This document shows, in pieces, positions 25,119-35,736 of a DNA stretch of 64,000 bases (the stretch's first letter is position 1; the number at the start of each line of letters is the position of its first letter). This DNA is from Agelas oroides (lineage: Eukaryota; Porifera; Demospongiae; Agelasida; Agelasidae), in assembly GCA_949130485.1 (NCBI GenBank), contig OX422205.1, positions 6,370,235 to 6,434,234 on the forward strand, in the 5' to 3' direction. Both the position numbers and the translations under genes were made by a program. The notes beneath the pieces were generated by a model. The model was not told the origin of the DNA, ran no database searches, and was given only the letters and a program-made list of their open reading frames with translations.

Positions 25119-28100
25119 ATGGCGGAAGTATCCCAAGAGATGATCCTCGACTACATGATCGGGAAGGGAGGAGTCGTGAAGAACGTGGATCTAGTGCGAC
25201 ACTTTAGAAAGTTTCTCCAGCTGGATGATCCACTTCTGAAAGGTATGTGCGCTGATGAGTATCAAACGACAGCAATAATGGTCAAAGGAATGTGGTTGTG
25301 TCATAATGGTCAGTGCGTTTTTGAAGTTTCTGTGGTCAAGGGGACAAATTGCTCGTTATCACCTCGCTCAAGTCAAAGCAGACAACAAGCCTGGTAGGAG
25401 CCCAAGGAGGAGGCTCTATAAGTAGACAAAGTTTCACTCTGGTAAGGCACAAAGTTGGAGATAGGATAGAGGTGTCCCAAGACTCAAATAGCTAGCTAAG
25501 AAACTATGATTTTATGGAGGTATGGCAAGAATTACGTTGGTTGTCCCAGTCCACCCTCACTTGTGAATTCCCGTGTTACTTGTTTACATTAGGGGGCCAC
25601 AAACAGTGTATTAGACCTAGCCAAGTGTTCACAATGGAAACAATACTTCTTGTTGCCCCTTCTATTCAGAGCGAGCTCGAGAGATCTTCAAAGAGAGGGT
25701 GAATGCTGTGGCCTACATCAAGGCTGAAAAGGTAAGGAAACAGGATAAGTAACTGCTGCCAGTGTTCTGTGAGATAAAGCTGTAGCCACATTAACCCTCC
25801 CTTCCTTCTTCCTCTTCCTTCTTCCTCTCCCAACTGTCACCTTACCACCTCTTCCTTCTCCCCCTCCCTACCTTTGTCTTACCACCACCACCCCTCTTCC
25901 TTCTCCCCCTCCCTACCTTCGTCTTACCACCACCACCCCTCTTCCTTCTCCCTCTCCCTACCTTTGTCTTACCACCACCCCTCTTCCTTCTCCCCCTCCC
26001 TATCTTACCACCACCCCCTCTTCCCTACCGCACAGGGTGAAAAGTACCTCTACCTAAAACAAGAGCTACACCCAGCTGGAGGCCTCCATCGCCCTCCCTC
26101 TGGTAGACCATCCATCGCCTCCATTGAAGACAGTAACAAAGCTCCATACCCTGGTCAGCGAGACTCCTTAAGCTCCTTGCTGAGTTCATCCTCCATTGCC
26201 TCCAACAGAACCTCTTCAGCCAGTGAGTTCTAATGCTATGATTGACCTGAACTAGGTAGTTGGAATTCGGCTGAGGCATCTAGGCAATACTACATACATA
26301 GCTTGTCTTCTGTTCCTCTGCCTAGGGGTTAAAGTGGCTTAGAGGTAAGAGGGTCTGACTATGTTTAGAAGGCCTTGGGTTTGAATCGCAGTTGGATCAT
26401 GGGGTTTTTTCTTTGTTGATATACACCCACTCGACTGTTAACCCTTTAAACCCTATAGTACACTTTTGATAACGTCATACTGCGCACTGCGCAGAAAAGA
26501 TAGTCTCTGCGCGCTGGCGCGCAGGTTCTGCGTCAGCAGAAAGGGTGGGACAGGGGGAGGTGGGTGGGGTCACCCGCAGGGTGCTGTGCACATGGCAGCT
26601 GCTAGGCTTGGCTGCAAAAGGACCGTGGTTGGCACCGGGTGGGCCAACTCTTGGCCTGGCTGCATGAGCAGGCTTAGAAAATGCTACTCTCACCTTTCAG
26701 GGGGTTCATTTCTGGCAGGGAAGGCTTCTTGGGCTCTAAGCGGGTGTTTGCCAATCGAGAGTGCTGACCATTGCATGCTCGTTAATGAGGGGGCGTGGTT
26801 AAGGTCACGTGTCTGCTTGCTAAGGCTGGAAGTGGAGTTGGGCTCAGTTTTGGAGTCAGAGCTTTGACACAAATGGAGATACGGTGCGTTAAAGGCATGT
26901 TTAGGCTAAAACTAATCTCCAGTGAAAAAAATTCAGTGTTTAAAGGGTTAAAGCCACATGTCGTGGGACAAGCATAATAGCTGACCATCTTCCCTGCAAA
27001 ACTGCTGGTGTGGTGAGCATACCTCTCTTTCCTCCTCCCCACTCTCCCCTCCTCTCCACTCTCCCCTCCTTCTCCTCCCCCAACCTCTCAGGTCTACAGC
27101 TGGGTGACCGTGCTGGCGCCCATGTGGCTGGCCACTCCCACCAAAACACCGTTCTCCAGTCATATCGTCCCATTTCCAACACCTCCCCGTATACCACTAC
27201 CACTAACAGCCCATCTCCCCGCTCTTCCTCCTTCACTCCCCCTCCCACTACCTCCTCCTCCTCCCTCAACTATCCACCAGCCTCCTCCTCCTCCAACCCT
27301 CGACCTCCCACCTCCCCCTCAAACTCGTTCTTCAACACCCCACCTGCCTTTTCCTCCTCTCTCTTCAGTCCTCCTCCATCAGAGATGAACAGGTCACTGT
27401 TTAGTTCCCCTCCTGCCCAGACCACTGGACCAGCAGAGGATGATGGAGAGTCCCTCCTCGCACAGATGACAGCAGAACTGAGCTCATTCGGCAGTTTCTT
27501 CAGCTCCTATGGCACAAGCTCGCTTACGACCTCTCTGGAGCCAGCAAAGCCCACTCCTCTCACCAGCAAAGCCCACTCTGCATCCTCTCGTCCATCTCCC
27601 TCACAAGGTGAAGAGTTAGTTACATACTAATAAAGAAATTTGAAGGCAAAAAATATAGCTGGAAAGTGAAAAACTGGCAGTCGCTGGGAATTAAATTCAG
27701 GACACCTGTGCCGTACATAGAGGATTGTGAGAGTTGGTGGTTGTCCAGTTGTCGTAGCTCAGTAACAGAGTGCTGGCAGCTCAAGCCAGGTGTCCTGGGG
27801 TTGACTCCCGGCATTTTGCCTGTTTTTTAATCTCATAATAGCTCGTTATTTCTAGCATGAGGCAACAAATTCTCAATAGTTAAAATCATGTTGTTTGTTG
27901 TCGATAGTAGCAACGGTTCTGGCATGCTGAGATGTGTATCAAAGAACCACTGCCAAGTTTTCCAGACTTTGTTTGAGCTGTAGAGATTGTGCCAAAGAGA
28001 AACTTTGTACAGATGCCGAATAAGTTTGTGAGTTACTAAGACGATTGGCATTCCTGGAGTATTGGAAGGTGTCAGTATCTGTCCCTCACAACATGGATTC

Positions 28101-31100
28101 TGTCACTTTCTAAATGTGTGTAGCTAGTTGCCAAGATGGCGATTCGATCAGGCGTGAAGAACACGGGGAGTCCTGATTAAAGAAGATTAGCATTACCTTC
28201 ATATCAGTTGTCTTGCAGCTGTCACACACTCCATGACCCACTTTGTACCAAGTCTCTTACGGCAGACATACAGGATGTGTGTGGCTGACAGCTCCGTGCA
28301 CGTCGCTTACCCTCATACCAGTATACCAACAAATTTGTTATATCAGCTACTTCTGATAACCTGATATAACAAATTTGTTCAATAAATGCACCAAACGTGT
28401 TCTTTCTCTAGCAATGAGAGGAAAGGAGCCTCGTTACAAAGCTACAATCCCGTTTGTCTCCTGGGGACAACACTGTGCTTCTGTTTGTGTCAGTTTTAGT
28501 GGGTTTCTGCAAGACATTGTGGAGCAGACACTGTACATACCAAATCTTAGTGTAAGAAACTTCCCCTCATAGTAATGGCTGAGTGAAATCTGCTATGGTA
28601 TCACATTTCAACATTCTCCCTTTGTTATCAGACATGTCCCCCTCCTTCGCATGTCTAATAGATCATTACCACCCCTCCTCCTTCTCTCCTCACTCTGTTA
28701 ACCTTAGCTGTGATAACATCACAATACCTGTAGTAATGTAACATGACTCCCCTCTCCAGGCGGTATTACCCAAGTGTTGTTGAAATTGTGGTCGATGTAC
28801 AGTGTACATGCTGATAACCCTGAGAATACTAATGCTCCGATACAGTAGCTGACTGACTTTCCTGTGCCCTTGAAACTTCTTCCCCCACACCCACTTCCCC
28901 CCCTTCACAGCCCCCACACCCACTTCCCCCCTTCACAGCCTCCACACCCACTTCCCCCCCTTCACAGCCCCCACACCCACTTCCCCCCTTCACAGCCCCC
29001 ACACCCACTTCCCCCCTTCACAGCCCCCACACCCACTTCCCCCCTTCACAGCCCCCACACCCACTTCCCTCCTTCACAGCCTTCACAACCCCCACACCCA
29101 CTTCCCTCCCCTTCACAGCCTCCACACACACCTGTAACACAGTGGCTGCACTGTTCATGTCGGCTAACTCTCTCATACCCTTCCTCCCTCCACACACACC
29201 TCCTCCCCCTCCACAGCCTCCACACACACCTCCTCCATCTCCACAGCTCCAACAGTAGCCAGTTCCAAGCATAGCCCAGCAAGCAGCAGCTCACTTGCAG
29301 TGCGCAACTCCTTACAAGACGCCCCCACCACCTCCACCTTTGAGTCACGAAGCTCCTCCTTTAGACCAAGTGACACTCCCACCACCACCACTTTTGAACC
29401 ACAGAGAAAACAGGGGAATTCCCCCAATACCTCACCATGGAGACAACAGGGGAATTCCCCCAATACCTCACCACGGAGACAACAGGGGAATTCCCCCACC
29501 ACCTCACCGCGGAGACTACAGGGGAATTCTCCCACCACCTCACCACGGAGACAACAGGGGAGTTCCCCCACTACGTCTATCATTGAACCACGGAGACCGA
29601 GTGAACCTTCCACTACCTCAACCTTTGGCCTACGAAGACCAAGTGATCCTCCTGGTACTTCTACCGTTGAACCACAGAGAGTGAATGGTGCTCCCACTGT
29701 CTCTGAGTGGCGGGGATCAGGCCCACCCGTGGAGCCACCTTCTGAACAGAAGCGATCGGGTTCTGCAGCTAAGCCACCACTAGACAACAAACGTCTAGGA
29801 CCTCAAGCTGAATCACCACCTGTGGGTCGACGGCCACTGGGCCACCCGCCACCAGAGCCAAGACGGCTTGGCCCTCCTGTAGAACTCCCTCCCTCCAGCC
29901 CCTCCAGGAAACCAGTTCCAATGGCTGCAAATGGCAGGAGACAGGGATCAAATGACAGCACCCGTAGACAAGGGTCTATGGAGAGGACTCATTCTCCCAT
30001 GTTTTCCCCAATGATCATGGTGGAGTCCCCAACACACTCCATTGGTAAGCTCCCCCTCGATACAACCAGGACTGACGCTAGTTCCTCACTTAACTTCCTT
30101 CTCTATCAGTGTTCTCACCAGGATTTACGGGCACAAATAATATCTCATGACCACGCCCCTCATCTTGAATGTAGTGATTGTCAGTACCAAACAGTTGTTA
30201 CATGTGTACCACTGTCAACAAAGCATTTTAGTTAAGTTTTAAGTTCAAATAGTGGCTGTTAAAAACATGTTGGTCTTGGGGTGGAGCCAAAGGGCACATT
30301 GTTGGTTTTGGGGCAGACCCAAAGGGCACAGTGTATTTTGGAAAAGGCCTAGCAAGAACCCTGTTCTCTATGTCTCTCTATCATCATCACTGACCTTCCT
30401 GTCCTTTAGATGCATGCTGCATCACACACCTCCAGCACCCCCCCCCCCCCCCCCCCCCCCCCCCCACTATGTCATATCACTTTCATTCTCAACTCTGTCC
30501 CTCCACACCTCTCCCCCCCCCCCCCAGACTCCTACAGCAACAGCGTGTTTTCACCTGGCGCCGCCTCGTCTTTCAGAGACAAATCCAATTCTGGAGGAGG
30601 CCCCAACGGTAGCATCTTATCCAACACAGTTGTGCAGCTTCGAAGCAGAGAGAAAAGCCCCCAAGATGGGAGGGTCGGACGGTCATACAGTATTACTTCG
30701 TCCGTACGGAAATCAAGAAACTTGGACAAAAATTGTACGTGTTGTGTATGTGTGTGTGTGTGTGTGTGTATGTGTGTGTATGTGTGTGTGTGTGCAGCTT
30801 GCTCTTGCTGGCTCTGAACTGTGATTCTGTTTTGTGTATGTAATAGCACAAACAAGTAGTTTACATGCCAGCTGCTTCCTCCCAGTAACCAACAATTTCA
30901 GGGCTGCAGTTTTAGTGTTTATATGCAGCTCTATAAACATACATGTATACTCGGTCGCACACACACACACAGTGGATAGCATCACACGTGCTTCCATCAC
31001 AATGACCCCACCGAGTGCTCGAAGAAAGTTGCCTCCGACAGTGGCCCCCAAGCCCCGCAGGGAGTCAGGTGCTGCCAGGTCTACACAAGATGTAAGCCAC

Positions 31101-33963
31101 TGAAAGTACATGTAGCCTCTTGGTCTCATTCCCAGACCCAATGTGCAGTTTGGGTATGGGACACAGTAGCCTAGACCCAATGTGCAGTTTGGGTATGGGA
31201 CCCAGTACCCTCTGATCTCATTCCCAGACCCAACGTGCAGTTTGGGTATGGGACCCAGTAGCCTCTTGAGGAGGGTGTGGCTGTACATCTTTATGTATGT
31301 GAGCCTTTCTCCTCTCCTGCCCCTCCTAGATTGCCCACGAGGGGGACGATGAAGGTTCGCTGACAGCAATCTCGGACCAGGCGGAGGGAGAGTACTATGA
31401 GATTGGCCCACTGGAGAAGGAGTGGATGCTGGCCACAGCCCAGACTGACATGGATACCCTCCACCAACTTCTCATCGCTGATCCTACCCTTGTTAACAGG
31501 AAGGACTTCATCCAGGTGAGTGTGTGAGGATGTTGTAGTGAGCTACCTGCTCATCTGGTGTGTATATGCTTAATGTGTAGCGCTTCACTCCCTTCCCTTC
31601 CTCCCCCCCCCCCCCCTTCCTCCCCCACCCTCCCTCTCCTCCTTTTCCACTACCTCCCATTCTTACTCTTCCTCCCTCTCTGCCTCTACCCTTTCTTCCC
31701 AAACTGGACACAACTTCAGGGAGTAAGTCACATACATCAGTTAAACAATATATCATTGCATACTTTGTGTATGTGTACTTAAAGTTCAAAGTTTTATTGC
31801 TATTTCCCTACATGCATCCCCTCATACCTCGTATCCATGGAAACTGCAAACAGTATGTAAGTTCAAAGTGTGTATATCCTGTTGATGACTCAGGGAACAT
31901 TGTGGTGTGCATTAATTTGGATACTATATCTTCTCCCTACCACAAACTCTCTTCTCCCTACCACAAACTCTTCTTGACACAAACACGCACACACCCAACA
32001 GACTGCATTGCACTGGGCAGCAAAACATGGCCGCTGTGATATCATCTCTGCACTGATCCTGAATGGGGCCCACGTGGAAATCAAATCGGTGAGCCAGCTG
32101 TTACCAATCTGGTCTGGTGATATGCACATGTGTATGTGATGATCCAATCCTCCCTCTCTTCGCATGATTGGTTCCTCGTCACATGATTGATTCAGAATGT
32201 AAGTACTCCATACCTGCATGTACAGCTGCTTGTTTTAACATGTTACAATTTAATTTACTTCTCTTCTTTCATCCCGTCCTTGCCTTCTCGACCCCAGGGG
32301 GTAAGTTTCTTAACCATATCATCCAGGCGTCCAGCCTCTAATGATTCTGGTATTGAAATTCTTTATTACAGGGTTTTACTCCTCTGCACTTGGCAGCACA
32401 GAGTGGCCATGACAACGCAATACTGCAGCTCATTAGGGAATACGGTACAGTTCTCGTCACCATAGCAACACAATAGTGCATGTCCCTGCTGGAATACTTG
32501 TGCTCACGAAATAGTACAACTTTTTGGCATGCTAGAATGTGATTGGTCAGTTCAACTTTCCCAGATGCCAATATTGATGCGCGGGATCATGGTGGGAAAA
32601 AACCGATCCACATGCTCAGCCACAAAGCATCAGAGAAAACTAGAAGTAAGTGGTGGGGGAGGCCTTGTACCCAGCCGTAGGCACAAGTAAGTGGTGGGGG
32701 AGGCCTTGTACCCAGCCGTAGGCACAAGTAAGTGGTGCGGGAGGCCTTGTACCCAGCCATAGGCACAAGACGGCCAGGAGGTCTATTGGTTCCTACTGGC
32801 CATAGGACAAAGAACCTGTGCATGGTGAAAATGCAGTTGAAGTTCTTTTGTATGTTCTTCTCCCCCGCAGTTTTACTGGCAAGACTCAACACCTATGGTC
32901 TGCCCTTGAGAGGTAGAACAATCACCTAGCCTCTCTCCCCAGCTCTTCCCGCTTCAAAAGACTGGGGAGCAAGGCTCGTAGTCACTTTTGTAACTTTTCC
33001 GATTCCTTATGTTTTGTTTTCTTTGTTCACGACAGCTGAAATACCTGAACACCTACCGACATTCAGTCAGCCTTCTAAAAAGAGGTCCTCCCTTGAGAGA
33101 CCTTGGTCGTCTGTTGGTCAGCTCTACGACCGAAGAATAAACTTTGAGAAGGTCAGAACAGCAGTAGACTGATTCACCCAGGCTCACGAGTGTTTGCACA
33201 TGGGTCAGAACAGCAGTAGACTGATTCACCCAGGCTCACGAGTGTTTACACATGTACAACGCGACGTGTAAACACATGAATATCTGATGCGTCTATGAAG
33301 CGCGTATGAGCCCCGCCCTTAGCGGAAGCTCAGCGCTATAGCGCGCCAAACTTGGTGATGCACTCGAAATACGCAACGGAATAATATTCAATTTCTATTC
33401 GGAACTGCCACATATGCATTTAAATTACAAAGCTTTTAAGGCCTTCCTTCACTGAATGGCTGCTTAGATCAGGACATGTACTGAGTATAAGAAGCAAAAC
33501 ACTGTGTGTTACCTGGGTATGTGTTTACAGTATATACACGTATGATGGTTGTATGATGAAGGCATGGGTCACAGCACTTGACGAAGACCTCAGAAGTGAC
33601 GTGGGCTAATAGTTACCAGAGAATGACATGGTTTCCTCTAATATGAGAAACCATCTCACACAAACCTCTAAGCTACTTTCACAAAATAGATTTACAGCGA
33701 ATTGTAGCAGTCAAAGATTATCCTTACTATTAGGTTGTGATACCTAGTCTCATTCCCAGGCCTCCTTTTCAGCCTGGGAATGAGACTAGGATGACAGCGT
33801 GATTGTGTTTGCAGCCTGGGTTTTAAGGTTGATCAATTCCTTCTGTTTGTAGGTTGCAAAGAGGCATCTCTCTCCAAGATTGAGTATCCGCAAGAGCTTC
33901 AGTTTCAAATCAAGAGTAAGGAAAGAACACTCACCAGCAAAGAAGGAGAAGGCGAAAAGGTGA
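25119..33963 (+). CDS. SOWAH: SOWAH (sosondowah) family winged-helix and ankyrin-repeat protein
   Basis: Eighteen exons: 25119-25242, 25670-25731, 26036-26222, 27092-27607, 29247-30044, 30528-30734, 30973-31091, 31330-31515, 31720-31722, 31854-31856, 32002-32088, 32196-32198, 32298-32300, 32372-32444, 32565-32645, 32871-32912, 33036-33151, 33853-33963. They sum to 2721 nt, 906 aa. The N-terminal 85 residues form the SOWAH winged-helix-like domain (ILDYMIGKGGVVKNVDLVRH ... ERVNAVAYIK). A long disordered Ser/Pro/Thr region follows. The C-terminal ankyrin block has LEKEWMLATAQTD, TALHWAAKHGRCDIISAL and GFTPLHLAAQSGHDNA. These closely resemble vertebrate SOWAHA-C (FTALHWAAKHG). Four exons are only 3 nt long. 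The tail is basic. The stop taken at 33961 requires ignoring a possible gtgagg donor there. Confidence 0.9.
26327..26405 (+). repeat. tRNA-derived element in SOWAH intron 3
   Basis: A-box-like tggcttagaggtaagag at 26335 and B-box-like gggtttgaatcgcag at about 26378, followed by a T run. No convincing cloverleaf, so it is probably a SINE head or tRNA pseudogene. Confidence 0.55.
27750..27822 (+). repeat. tRNA-derived element in SOWAH intron 4
   Basis: A-box-like cgtagctcagtaacagagtg and B-box-like ggggttgactcccggc, about tRNA length, then T-rich sequence. An inverted related stretch lies just upstream (27690-27745, aattcaggacacctgtgcc), suggesting two elements back to back. Confidence 0.55.
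28884..29130 (+). repeat. About 27-bp minisatellite of acceptor-like units, SOWAH intron 4
   Basis: Eight or so units of ccccacacccacttcccccc plus ttcacag. Each ends in a pyrimidine run and CAG, so each resembles a 3' splice site. The array stops about 115 bases before the exon 5 acceptor. Confidence 0.9.
29408..29575 (+). repeat. 36-nt coding repeat, five copies, SOWAH exon 5
   Basis: Encodes repeats of the type RQQGNSPTTSPR. The first three units contain the palindrome ggggaattcccc (29413, 29449, 29485); the last two carry single changes. Reading frame is kept. Confidence 0.92.
30438..30465. repeat. Poly(C) tract in SOWAH intron 5
   Basis: About 28 consecutive C, with a second shorter C run at 30512-30525 next to the exon 6 acceptor. 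Length may be unreliable in assembly. Confidence 0.9.
31124..31260. repeat. Three-copy repeat with foldback-end motif, SOWAH intron 7
   Basis: Units contain tctcattcccagacccaatg followed by tgcagtttgggtatgggac, each able to fold as a small hairpin (cattcccagaccc against gggtatgggac). The middle copy has lost its left part. Confidence 0.8.
31720..32300 (+). other. Four 3-nt microexons of SOWAH (31720-31722, 31854-31856, 32196-32198, 32298-32300)
   Basis: Contexts are ttcag|GGA|gtaagt, aacag|TAT|gtaagt, ttcag|AAT|gtaagt and cccag|GGG|gtaagt. The first pair adds Gly-Tyr between KDFIQ and TALHWAAKHG. The second pair adds Asn-Gly between VEIKS and GFTPLHLAAQ. All neighbouring exons end in phase 0, so each microexon adds exactly one codon. 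Flanking introns are 71-204 nt. With them the spacing equals that of vertebrate SOWAH ankyrin repeats. Confidence 0.85.
32646..32768 (+). repeat. 41-bp tandem repeat, three copies, starting at the donor of SOWAH exon 15
   Basis: Copies begin gtaagtggtgggggaggcct at 32646, 32687 and 32728. The first gtaagt is the splice donor itself, so the repeat multiplied the 5' splice site. Confidence 0.95.
33150..33256 (+). repeat. 53-bp tandem duplication at the donor of SOWAH exon 17
   Basis: Two near-identical copies begin ggtcagaacagcagtagact. The first begins at the exon/intron boundary (AAG|gtcaga). The second ends in a small palindrome (gtgtttacac ... gtgtaaacac). Confidence 0.93.
33749..33791. 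mobile_element. Mini foldback element, SOWAH intron 17
   Basis: tagtctcattcccaggcct and agcctgggaatgagactag are inverted copies separated by a few bases. A member of the dispersed family with TAGYCTCRTWCCCAGG ends. Confidence 0.85.
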
Positions 33964-34071: not shown

Positions 34072-34755
34072 TCTCAGACTCCATGTCATGCCTCATTCTC
34101 AGACTCCATGCTGGGCCTCATTCTCAGACTCCATGTTGGGCCTCATTCTCAGACTCCATGCTGGGCCTCGTTCTCAGACTCCATACTGGGCCTCGTTCTC
34201 AGACTCCATGTCATGCCTCATTCTCAGACTCCATACTGGGCCTCGTTCTCAGACTCCATGTCATGCCTCATTCTCAGACTCCATACTGGGCCTCGTTCTC
34301 AGACTCCATGTCATGCCTCATTCTCAGACTCCATGCTGGGCCTCATTCTCAGACTCCATGTTGGGCCTCATTCTCAGACTCCATGCTGGGCCTCGTTCTC
34401 AGACTCCATACTGGGCCTCATTCTCAGACTCCATGCTGGGCCTCGTTCTCAATCTCCATGTTAGGCCTCATTCTCAGACTCCATGTTAGGCCTCATTCTC
34501 AGACTCCATGCTGGGCCTCATTCTCAGACTCCATGTTGGGCCTCGTTCTCAGACTCCATACTGGGCCTCGTTCTCAGACTCCATACTGGGCCTCGTTCTC
34601 AGACTCCATGTCATGCCTCATTCTCAGACTCCATGCTGGGCCTCGTTCTCATACCCCATGTCGGGCCTCGTTCTCAATCTCCATGTTGGGCCTCATTCTC
34701 ATACTCCATGCTGGGCCTCATTCTCAGACTCCATGCTGGGCCTCATTCTCATACT
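34072..34755. repeat. 25-bp minisatellite, about 27 copies
   Basis: Unit gcctcattctcagactccat plus gctgg, with variants at a few positions (cattctc/cgttctc, gctgg/gttgg/tcat). Period 25 keeps long open frames in all three forward frames, but these are repeat artefacts. Confidence 0.97.
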
Positions 34756-35736
34756 CCCATGTCAAAGCCAAGCCGTAGCTTTTAGCTGCATGTGTGAAAG
34801 GATCTTGTTGCGTTGCTGCATGCATGTATTTCATCTCACCCTCAGACCTCATAGTAGCTTGAGACCTCCTGACTGGGACATGTGACGTGTGTGCAGTAGG
34901 CAAGGACTTGATATTTTCTGTTGTGTACGAGTGGTAATAATTAGAGTGTTGTATTGTGACACATGCAACAATGAAATGTATATTGTGATATTGAATTGAC
35001 ACAAGGGCACATCCGCCCTTGATTTATACTATAAGCGTTTTCTGGCTATATGTCTTGTATGAAAACATGTACCAATGCCTCTTTTGTATAATCTACAATA
35101 GTTGTATGCACAGCAATCTCCGGTAGTCCACAGCATGGGAGTAGATGTTGGGCAGATAGTTAATGAGGCAATTTTGTCAACTATATAAGGTGCACTGCCA
35201 TCCAGTTCACTAGGGCAGCTCCAGAAGTCAAAATGCATGTGAGACACCCTGATACCTATTTTGAATCCATTTGATGGGAACAATAACCACTTGAGCATTA
35301 ATTTCGCTAGCTTAATCCTATACTAAGCCAATTTAAGATACTGTAAGCATAAGCCTGTACTAGGCCCTTCAACCCTATACTAAGTCACATAAGCATATGG
35401 CCTATACAAATCATACATATATACTGAAGCATAATGTGCCTACATCAACACTACACTAACTAAGCATATATCCCACCTACTATACTTCACGCATAGGCCA
35501 GAGTGGACTTTAACTGTCATAATTTGTCCCCTCAAGGCTACAAGGGAAATTATGGCTCATAATTCCCTCTCCATGTATTTTTAGTTTACAGTCTACTACA
35601 GTGTCACACTATAGTACAGATTTTACATCATTTTTCTGTGACAGTAAATAATATCGAAGTTACTGTAAACACTTGCACATGTACAGATGTGTTTACAATA
35701 ATAACAACAAAGGACCAATCAGGTGGGATATATAAT

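Follow-up and report, generated by a model that had tools for sequence, protein, structure and literature searches.

We analyzed a window of 64,000 nucleotides (nt) from the sponge Agelas oroides (contig OX422205.1, positions 6,370,235 to 6,434,234, forward strand; window positions are used below unless another contig is named). It holds a SOWAH-like ankyrin gene with four predicted exons of three nucleotides each, two on either side of an 87-nt exon. Judging from the genomic sequence, these four units are very probably genuine, constitutively included exons of a SOWAH-family ankyrin gene, and they would supply two residues at each of two ankyrin sites. Hundreds of similar units occur elsewhere in the same genome, many of them in tandem arrays upstream of Roc-COR genes.

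Position and rarity of the single-codon exons

The four exons are on the forward strand: GGA (Gly) at 31720..31722 in the context cttCAG/GGA/GTAAGT (slashes mark exon borders), TAT (Tyr) at 31854..31856 in aaaCAG/TAT/GTAAGT, AAT (Asn) at 32196..32198 in attCAG/AAT/GTAAGT, and GGG (Gly) at 32298..32300 in cccCAG/GGG/GTAAGT. Each residue agrees with the homologues. The initial annotation of this DNA had placed four AG/NNN/GTAAGT units around the exon 32002-32088, and all of them were found where it had put them. With so short a stretch between AG and GT, the four units have the length of microexons (≤ 30 nt).

The larger exons and their frame were also as first described: an exon at 31330..31515 (+) that ends in ...NRKDFIQ in phase 0, the 87-nt exon TALHWAAKHGRCDIISALILNGAHVEIKS at 32002..32088 (+), in phase 0 at both ends, and a 73-nt exon at 32372..32444 (+) encoding GFTPLHLAAQSGHDNAILQLIREY plus one nucleotide. 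The GGA and TAT exons part 31516..32001 (+) into three introns of 204, 131, and 145 nt, and the AAT and GGG exons part 32089..32371 (+) into three introns of 107, 99, and 71 nt. All junctions from 31515 to 32372 are in phase 0, and the exons joined in order give ...NRKDFIQ-G-Y-TALHWAAKHGRCDIISALILNGAHVEIKS-N-G-GFTPLHLAAQSGHDN...

The early expectation that four chance matches would be very unlikely was borne out. For the 769 bases of both introns, a first-order Markov model of the window predicts 0.0042 CAGNNNGTAAGT, and four were seen; the relaxed YAGNNNGTRAGD (0.05 expected) matched only those four units. Across both strands of the window, AGNNNGTAAGT had five matches, with a mean of 2.11 in 100 shuffles, four of which reached five; four of the five matches are the SOWAH units, on the forward strand within 589 bases. 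Genome-wide, YAGNNNGTAAGT had 5,189 matches vs. 4,582 in the reversed control. The 677 array-type units described below suffice for this excess, which leaves no detectable surplus of perfect-site single-codon exons outside arrays, as far as so crude a control can tell. At the genome-wide density without those 677 units, ~0.005 units are expected in 579 bases, and the SOWAH cluster stands out against the background of isolated YAGNNNGTAAGT matches. Two consecutive single-codon pairs in one gene had been called exceptional. This remains true outside the arrays, where YAGNNNGTAAGT shows no excess, but not for the genome as a whole, which holds hundreds of single-codon units in arrays.

We also searched both introns for all solutions with AG...GT borders that consist of one exon of 6 nt or of two exons, in order, with a combined length of 6 nt. 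In the first intron, GGA + TAT was the only combination coding G-Y or G-F, and in the second, AAT + GGG was the only one coding N-G or S-G. Duplication was considered as the origin of the four units and dropped, since no repeat joining them was reported.

Gene model and homologues

The in-phase splice-site model of the SOWAH-like gene has 18 exons at 25119..33963 (+), from the ATG at 25119 to the TGA at 33961-33963, and encodes 906 amino acids (aa); its least certain part is the low-complexity middle (exons 3-7). A protein search with the ankyrin block retrieved 788 proteins, and three of the 120 listed carry the SOWAH domain PF25877 (P0025, P0037, and P0107). The gene model matches P0025 at its N-terminus (62% identity over 97 aa) and in its C-terminal part (56% over 224 aa). 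In the ankyrin-block search, P0025 presented 58% identity; its 747 aa take up 2,244 nt of a 2,307-nt contig, which leaves no room for an intron; it represents either a transcript after splicing or a copy without introns. P0037 (57% identity, 602 aa, 1,809 nt of a 2,473-nt contig) is probably of the same kind, though 664 nt are spare. P0107 is a shark SOWAHB.

The two sites read KDFVYGYTALHWAA...IKSNGGFTPLHLAAQ in P0025 and KDFFMGYTATHWGA...IKSNGGFTPLHLAAQ in P0037, with G-Y and N-G where the microexons insert. Both pairs predicted from the window are therefore present letter for letter in these proteins. With the four codons, the alignment to P0025 and P0037 is gap-free through both sites and identical at all four residues; without them, it has two gaps of two residues, in agreement with the suggestion that each ankyrin repeat would be two residues short. 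P0107 has G-F and S-G, so that each of the three homologues compared has a residue pair at either site (G-Y or G-F; N-G or S-G). The vertebrate motif HGGYTPLH of the initial annotation reads SGGYTPLH in this shark SOWAHB.

Four of the five Pfam Ank models rise in score when the four residues are included (Ank from 45.5 to 51.6 bits, Ank_2 from 51.4 to 55.5 bits), and the ankyrin block with these residues matches 54-residue stretches of solved ankyrin chains without gaps. The Gly of the ankyrin turn (G-x-T-x-L-H) belongs to the first inserted pair. We assigned the block to the SOWAH ankyrin family by its similarity to the homologues bearing PF25877. When its own genome was searched with the ankyrin block, 164 matches were obtained; the best two were on the SOWAH-like gene, and the others include many ankyrin frames with 26-46% identity among the rows listed. 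Separately, the SOWAH ankyrin query had many matches in each of three ankyrin-repeat open frames (3,714, 5,246, and 5,971 codons) on contig C3 at 17578065-17688886 (-).

Proposed splicing of the four exons

All four microexons have the donor GTAAGT, which occurs once among the 13 remaining donors in the gene model (Fisher p = 0.002). Three introns would split two neighboring residues of each ankyrin hairpin loop (G-Y; N-G) into two single codons. Exon definition appears sterically implausible with three bases between acceptor and donor, and the simplest route is most likely a stepwise removal as in recursive splicing, with one codon left per stop. The upstream exon would join the acceptor of a unit, and the GTAAGT behind the codon would be the next donor. 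Each unit would work like a ratchet point of recursive splicing that leaves one codon instead of none, and it differs from the zero-nucleotide exon that defines such points, since AG and GT are three bases apart in each of the four units. We infer this order, the inclusion in the mRNA, and the constitutive use from the sequence, the last because the homologues carry the residues.

Some observations weigh against constitutive 3-nt exons in a SOWAH gene. The efficient inclusion of four such exons is mechanistically demanding. The contig of P0037 leaves up to 664 nt for an intron, one of the five Ank models (Ank_4) falls from 43.8 to 40.3 bits with the four residues, and the Pfam scan of the gene model reported Ank families only, without the PF25877 listed for the homologues.

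The exons could be real and yet alternatively spliced, providing optional one-residue changes at the hairpin tip, as first proposed for them. Each exon is 3 nt long and in phase 0, so any subset would keep the frame, and 3-nt exons are described as alternative in two known cases (hth, PMC7392893; RPS24, PMC11162997). However, the homologues compared (3/3) carry both pairs and represent the included form only. The first pair contains the turn Gly, the four donors are perfect consensus sites, and skipping lowers the Ank score from 51.6 to 45.5 bits. We regard optional use as improbable, and the switches proposed at first found no support here. It is less credible still that the units are chance matches or decoys, with the residues coming from other bases or truly absent, given 0.004 units expected vs. 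four seen, the correct order, phase, and residues throughout, and the lack of any further way to gain 6 nt from one or two exons with AG...GT borders.

Arrays of single-codon units in the genome

The arrays were first noticed as runs of CAGNNNGTAAGT at a spacing of ~332 bp on contig C1. In the 259-Mb assembly, the pattern YACTCAGNNNGTAAGTTNAC retrieved 677 units of the form YACTCAG/NNN/GTAAGTTNAC, vs. none in the reversed control. Many of them lie in tandem arrays, with 25 to 65 units in the arrays read whole. Such arrays were located upstream of Roc-COR exons on C1 (1096601-1118854, 1677071-1691183, 1775814-1788414, and 5908001-5928000) and on C9 (8430902-8451967 and 9286159-9304148). Six arrays (R1-R3 and A4-A6) were fetched, A4 in part, and A5 and A6 in part for the interval count below. 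The codon order is RIEEWIEKVKRIKRDRRANEEKLERRANEEKLELLLEDERRLLLDDLDRRLDRDDEEKKWLREEN in R1 (65 units, C1 1096601-1118854), EEEEIEEMEEAAMRVVGWEEDWVWWRRL in R2 (28 units), EGFRIIRRRNIFLRRVNYIIEWPPR in R3 (25 units), PPPWMREFWAEGPGGWAWETGRALGGAFGALWRAFGLRAQV in A5 (41 units), and EEDELSEDELSLEKRLLEGLSLEEELLLRRSWERKLELRELRRELRRLRRERWREL in A6 (56 units seen).

Within the arrays, the splice sites are kept and the codon varies. All 207 intervals of ≤ 30 nt between TACTCAG and GTAAGT in the six arrays are 3 nt long; TACTCAG and GTAAGTTGAC were found 4 to 24 bases apart in two cases, both on contigs without a Roc match. When units were located by anchors away from the splice sites, YAG/NNN/GTRAG(T/G/A) was kept in 238 of the 240 units of six arrays, and one further R1 unit has a broken donor. 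Mean diversity per site was 0.05-0.09 for the unit as a whole and 0.009-0.05 near the splice sites, and codon diversity had array means of ~0.4-0.7 (0.0-0.74 at single codon sites). The codon was the most variable three-column window in four of the six arrays, and in R2 and A6 two windows were as variable. Among unit pairs with flanks at least 98% identical, codons differed in 93 of 189.

No stop codon was found among the 677 units, and the TRR pattern gave 16 matches, all of them TGG. Taken as proof of translation, this result is weakened by the codons CAG (1 seen vs. 19.5 expected among 213) and AGG (0 vs. 6.9), which are depleted too, and by TAA and TGA, which would make overlapping donors. 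The missing stops are suggestive of translation, but confounded. The codon order showed no hydrophobic or charge (helical) periodicity beyond shuffles in the six arrays (p 0.14-0.49), and the combined test on three scales gave nothing beyond chance (p 0.19-0.41). The charge periodicity of A6 (p = 0.010) was one of 18 array tests and was not taken as evidence.

At C1 5550530-5557495 (-), six TTG units were seen at intervals of 1,393 bp, and one or two GAG units are listed in between, which looks like the amplification of a short codon pattern.

Roc-COR genes downstream of the arrays

R1, R2, and R3 are each followed by a large paralogous exon. The domain scan covered the exon downstream of R1, which contains PF08477 (Roc) and PF16095 (COR-A) above the cut-off and so qualifies as ROCO. 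At the R2 locus, a Death domain is encoded in a separate exon after the Roc exon. A genome search found 17 Roc-COR exons, and at least 15 of them have array-type units upstream on the same strand among the matches listed; some of these loci have at least one to three such units. The 15 loci are R1-R3, eight minus-strand loci on C1 (5.38, 5.51, 5.64, 5.72, 5.87, 6.07, 6.13, and 6.20 Mb), two plus-strand loci on C1 (8.45 and 8.63 Mb), and A5 and A6 on C9. The link is weaker for the two plus-strand loci, since the closest units among those listed are at distances of 36 and 52 kb. No units were among the matches listed upstream of the Roc exons C17:4013475 and C9:8741160, and an isolated array-type unit at C1:5869753 (+), near a minus-strand Roc exon, goes against the general orientation.

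In the alignment of R1, R2, and R3, the array is preceded by short start exons (MSDRKPSHNQ, MGNGESSEK, and MSRIELPEE) and followed by 25-nt exons (EQEEKKLK, EQREKKMK, and ELQEKKMK) that continue with D-YQEALKLG in the Roc exon. On the array side, the start exons and the 25-nt exons are in phase 0. A5 has a phase-0 start exon (MSDRVPRRQ), and a 25-nt exon was looked for there and not found. A6 has a 25-nt exon (QQREKQLK) in phase 0 towards the array, its start exon being outside the stretch fetched. Lying between an in-phase start exon and the 25-nt exon, the array sits where an N-terminal stretch of the protein belongs.

Most frames retrieved in protein searches with the Roc genes start within the Roc exon or shortly ahead of it, as judged from the N-termini of 120 proteins listed in one search. 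Of the 87 proteins of a second search, six were fetched, the longest included, and P0242, P0243, and P0245 have a longer unbroken N-terminus, with an N-terminal stretch of 95-133 residues. Serial inclusion of all units predicts a stretch of 83, 45, and 42 residues for R1-R3, vs. ~19 with one codon.

Possible use of the arrays

On present sequence evidence, it is fairly probable that Roc-COR genes, which are innate-immunity-like, write a stretch of their protein one codon per exon, with a hypervariable codon between kept splice sites. The same moderate confidence covers the companion proposal that the SOWAH-like gene, with its four microexons, shows this ability in isolated form. Serial joining of the array codons, complete or stochastic, is the mode of use that we moderately favor, and the N-terminal length of the homologues speaks for it. 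Every unit is 3 nt long and in phase 0, so any subset could be spliced in frame.

The variable exons of Dscam encode parts of immunoglobulin (Ig) domains and are mutually exclusive. In a similar way, one or a few array codons could be chosen per transcript, which we hold to be rather unlikely. A hypervariable codon in otherwise near-identical tandem units would fit such a choice, and so would the missing helical periodicity in the six arrays, where no order-dependent protein feature was detected. However, R1 offers only 10 different amino acids in 65 units, a poor repertoire for picking one, and the N-terminus of the homologues (95-133 residues) is nearer to serial inclusion than to one codon. 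Moreover, the consecutive single-codon exons of the SOWAH-like gene appear to be used in series.

More doubtful is that the arrays are satellites bearing splice sites with no coding use, in which the codon varies as the only part free of splicing constraint. The missing stops can partly be explained by splicing in this way, considering the depletion of CAG and AGG and the overlapping donors that TAA or TGA would create. Against it, the variability of the codon greatly exceeds that of the remaining unit (unmatched in four of six arrays), both splice sites are intact in 238 of 240 units, the interval is 3 nt in 207 of 207, and the start exons (R1-R3 and A5) and 25-nt exons (R1-R3 and A6) are in phase 0 towards the array. 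Serial joining ranks ahead of choice and of arrays that are not spliced, and the lack of helical periodicity in the codon order keeps this preference moderate.

With any subset of units in frame, the N-terminus of a receptor could lengthen, shorten, and change by single residues through unequal crossing-over in evolution, and possibly also through stochastic splicing within one animal. If the arrays are spliced, the duplication of a 300-500 bp unit would allow a protein region to be edited by one residue at a time, and receptors could diversify in this way.

Comparison with known systems

Single 3-nt exons are already known, and the arrays, if spliced, go further than the SOWAH case. The reports drawn on here describe an isolated 3-nt exon in mouse Ncam (cited in PMC8042270), an alternatively spliced one in Drosophila hth (PMC7392893), and alternatively spliced microexons of 3, 18, and 22 nt in human RPS24 (PMC11162997). 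The likeness lies in the exon length of 3 nt. As these sources present them, each gene has a single 3-nt exon, whereas the SOWAH-like gene has two consecutive ones twice around an 87-nt exon, apparently constitutive.

In plants, a constitutive 1-nt exon is described for APC11 and strong GTRAGT donors for the 1-nt exon of VPS55 (PMC4674806; PMC8831610), so exons of near-zero length are included there too. The passages drawn on here mention adjacent microexons of 5 and 12 nt, but no single-codon pairs or arrays. In Drosophila ratchet points, acceptor and donor are juxtaposed (PMC8605326); the SOWAH units resemble them, as far as that account goes, in almost adjoining sites and probably stepwise splicing, and differ in leaving one codon in the mRNA where ratchet points leave no base.

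For the arrays, schistosome micro-exon genes are comparable in that much of the coding region consists of tiny symmetric exons that can vary by splicing (PMC4350168). The array exons differ in being all one codon long, in near-identical tandem units where the codon is the most variable part. Dscam-type arrays (PMC6851185) likewise array variant exons in an immune-type gene, but the variants here are one codon each. In a term search, exon and microexon terms were absent from the main text of a sponge immune-receptor genome paper (PMC12909245), and among the matches listed in searches of open-licence papers we found no precedent for arrays of single-codon exons or for such a route to receptor diversity.

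One-codon exons are near the lower limit of what is usable for the spliceosome. That a conserved domain contains two consecutive pairs suggests that genomes can depend on such exons, and this one seems to tolerate them in large numbers, given the tandem arrays of hypervariable single-codon units in its Roc-COR genes. Gene predictors would silently lose the residues that such exons encode. The arrays, if spliced, would also make it testable how the spliceosome copes with dozens of successive 3-nt exons.

Other features of the window

A minisatellite of ~25-bp units (CCTCATTCTCAGACTCCATGCTGGG-like) occupies 34080-34775, starting ~100 bp past the stop codon of the SOWAH-like gene; over most of its length, each of the three forward frames stays open. 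Within the gene, GGTCAGAACAGCAGTAGACTGATTCACCCAGGCTCACGAGTGTTT occurs twice at 33151-33247, 52 bp apart, and its first copy spans the donor of the exon ending at 33151.

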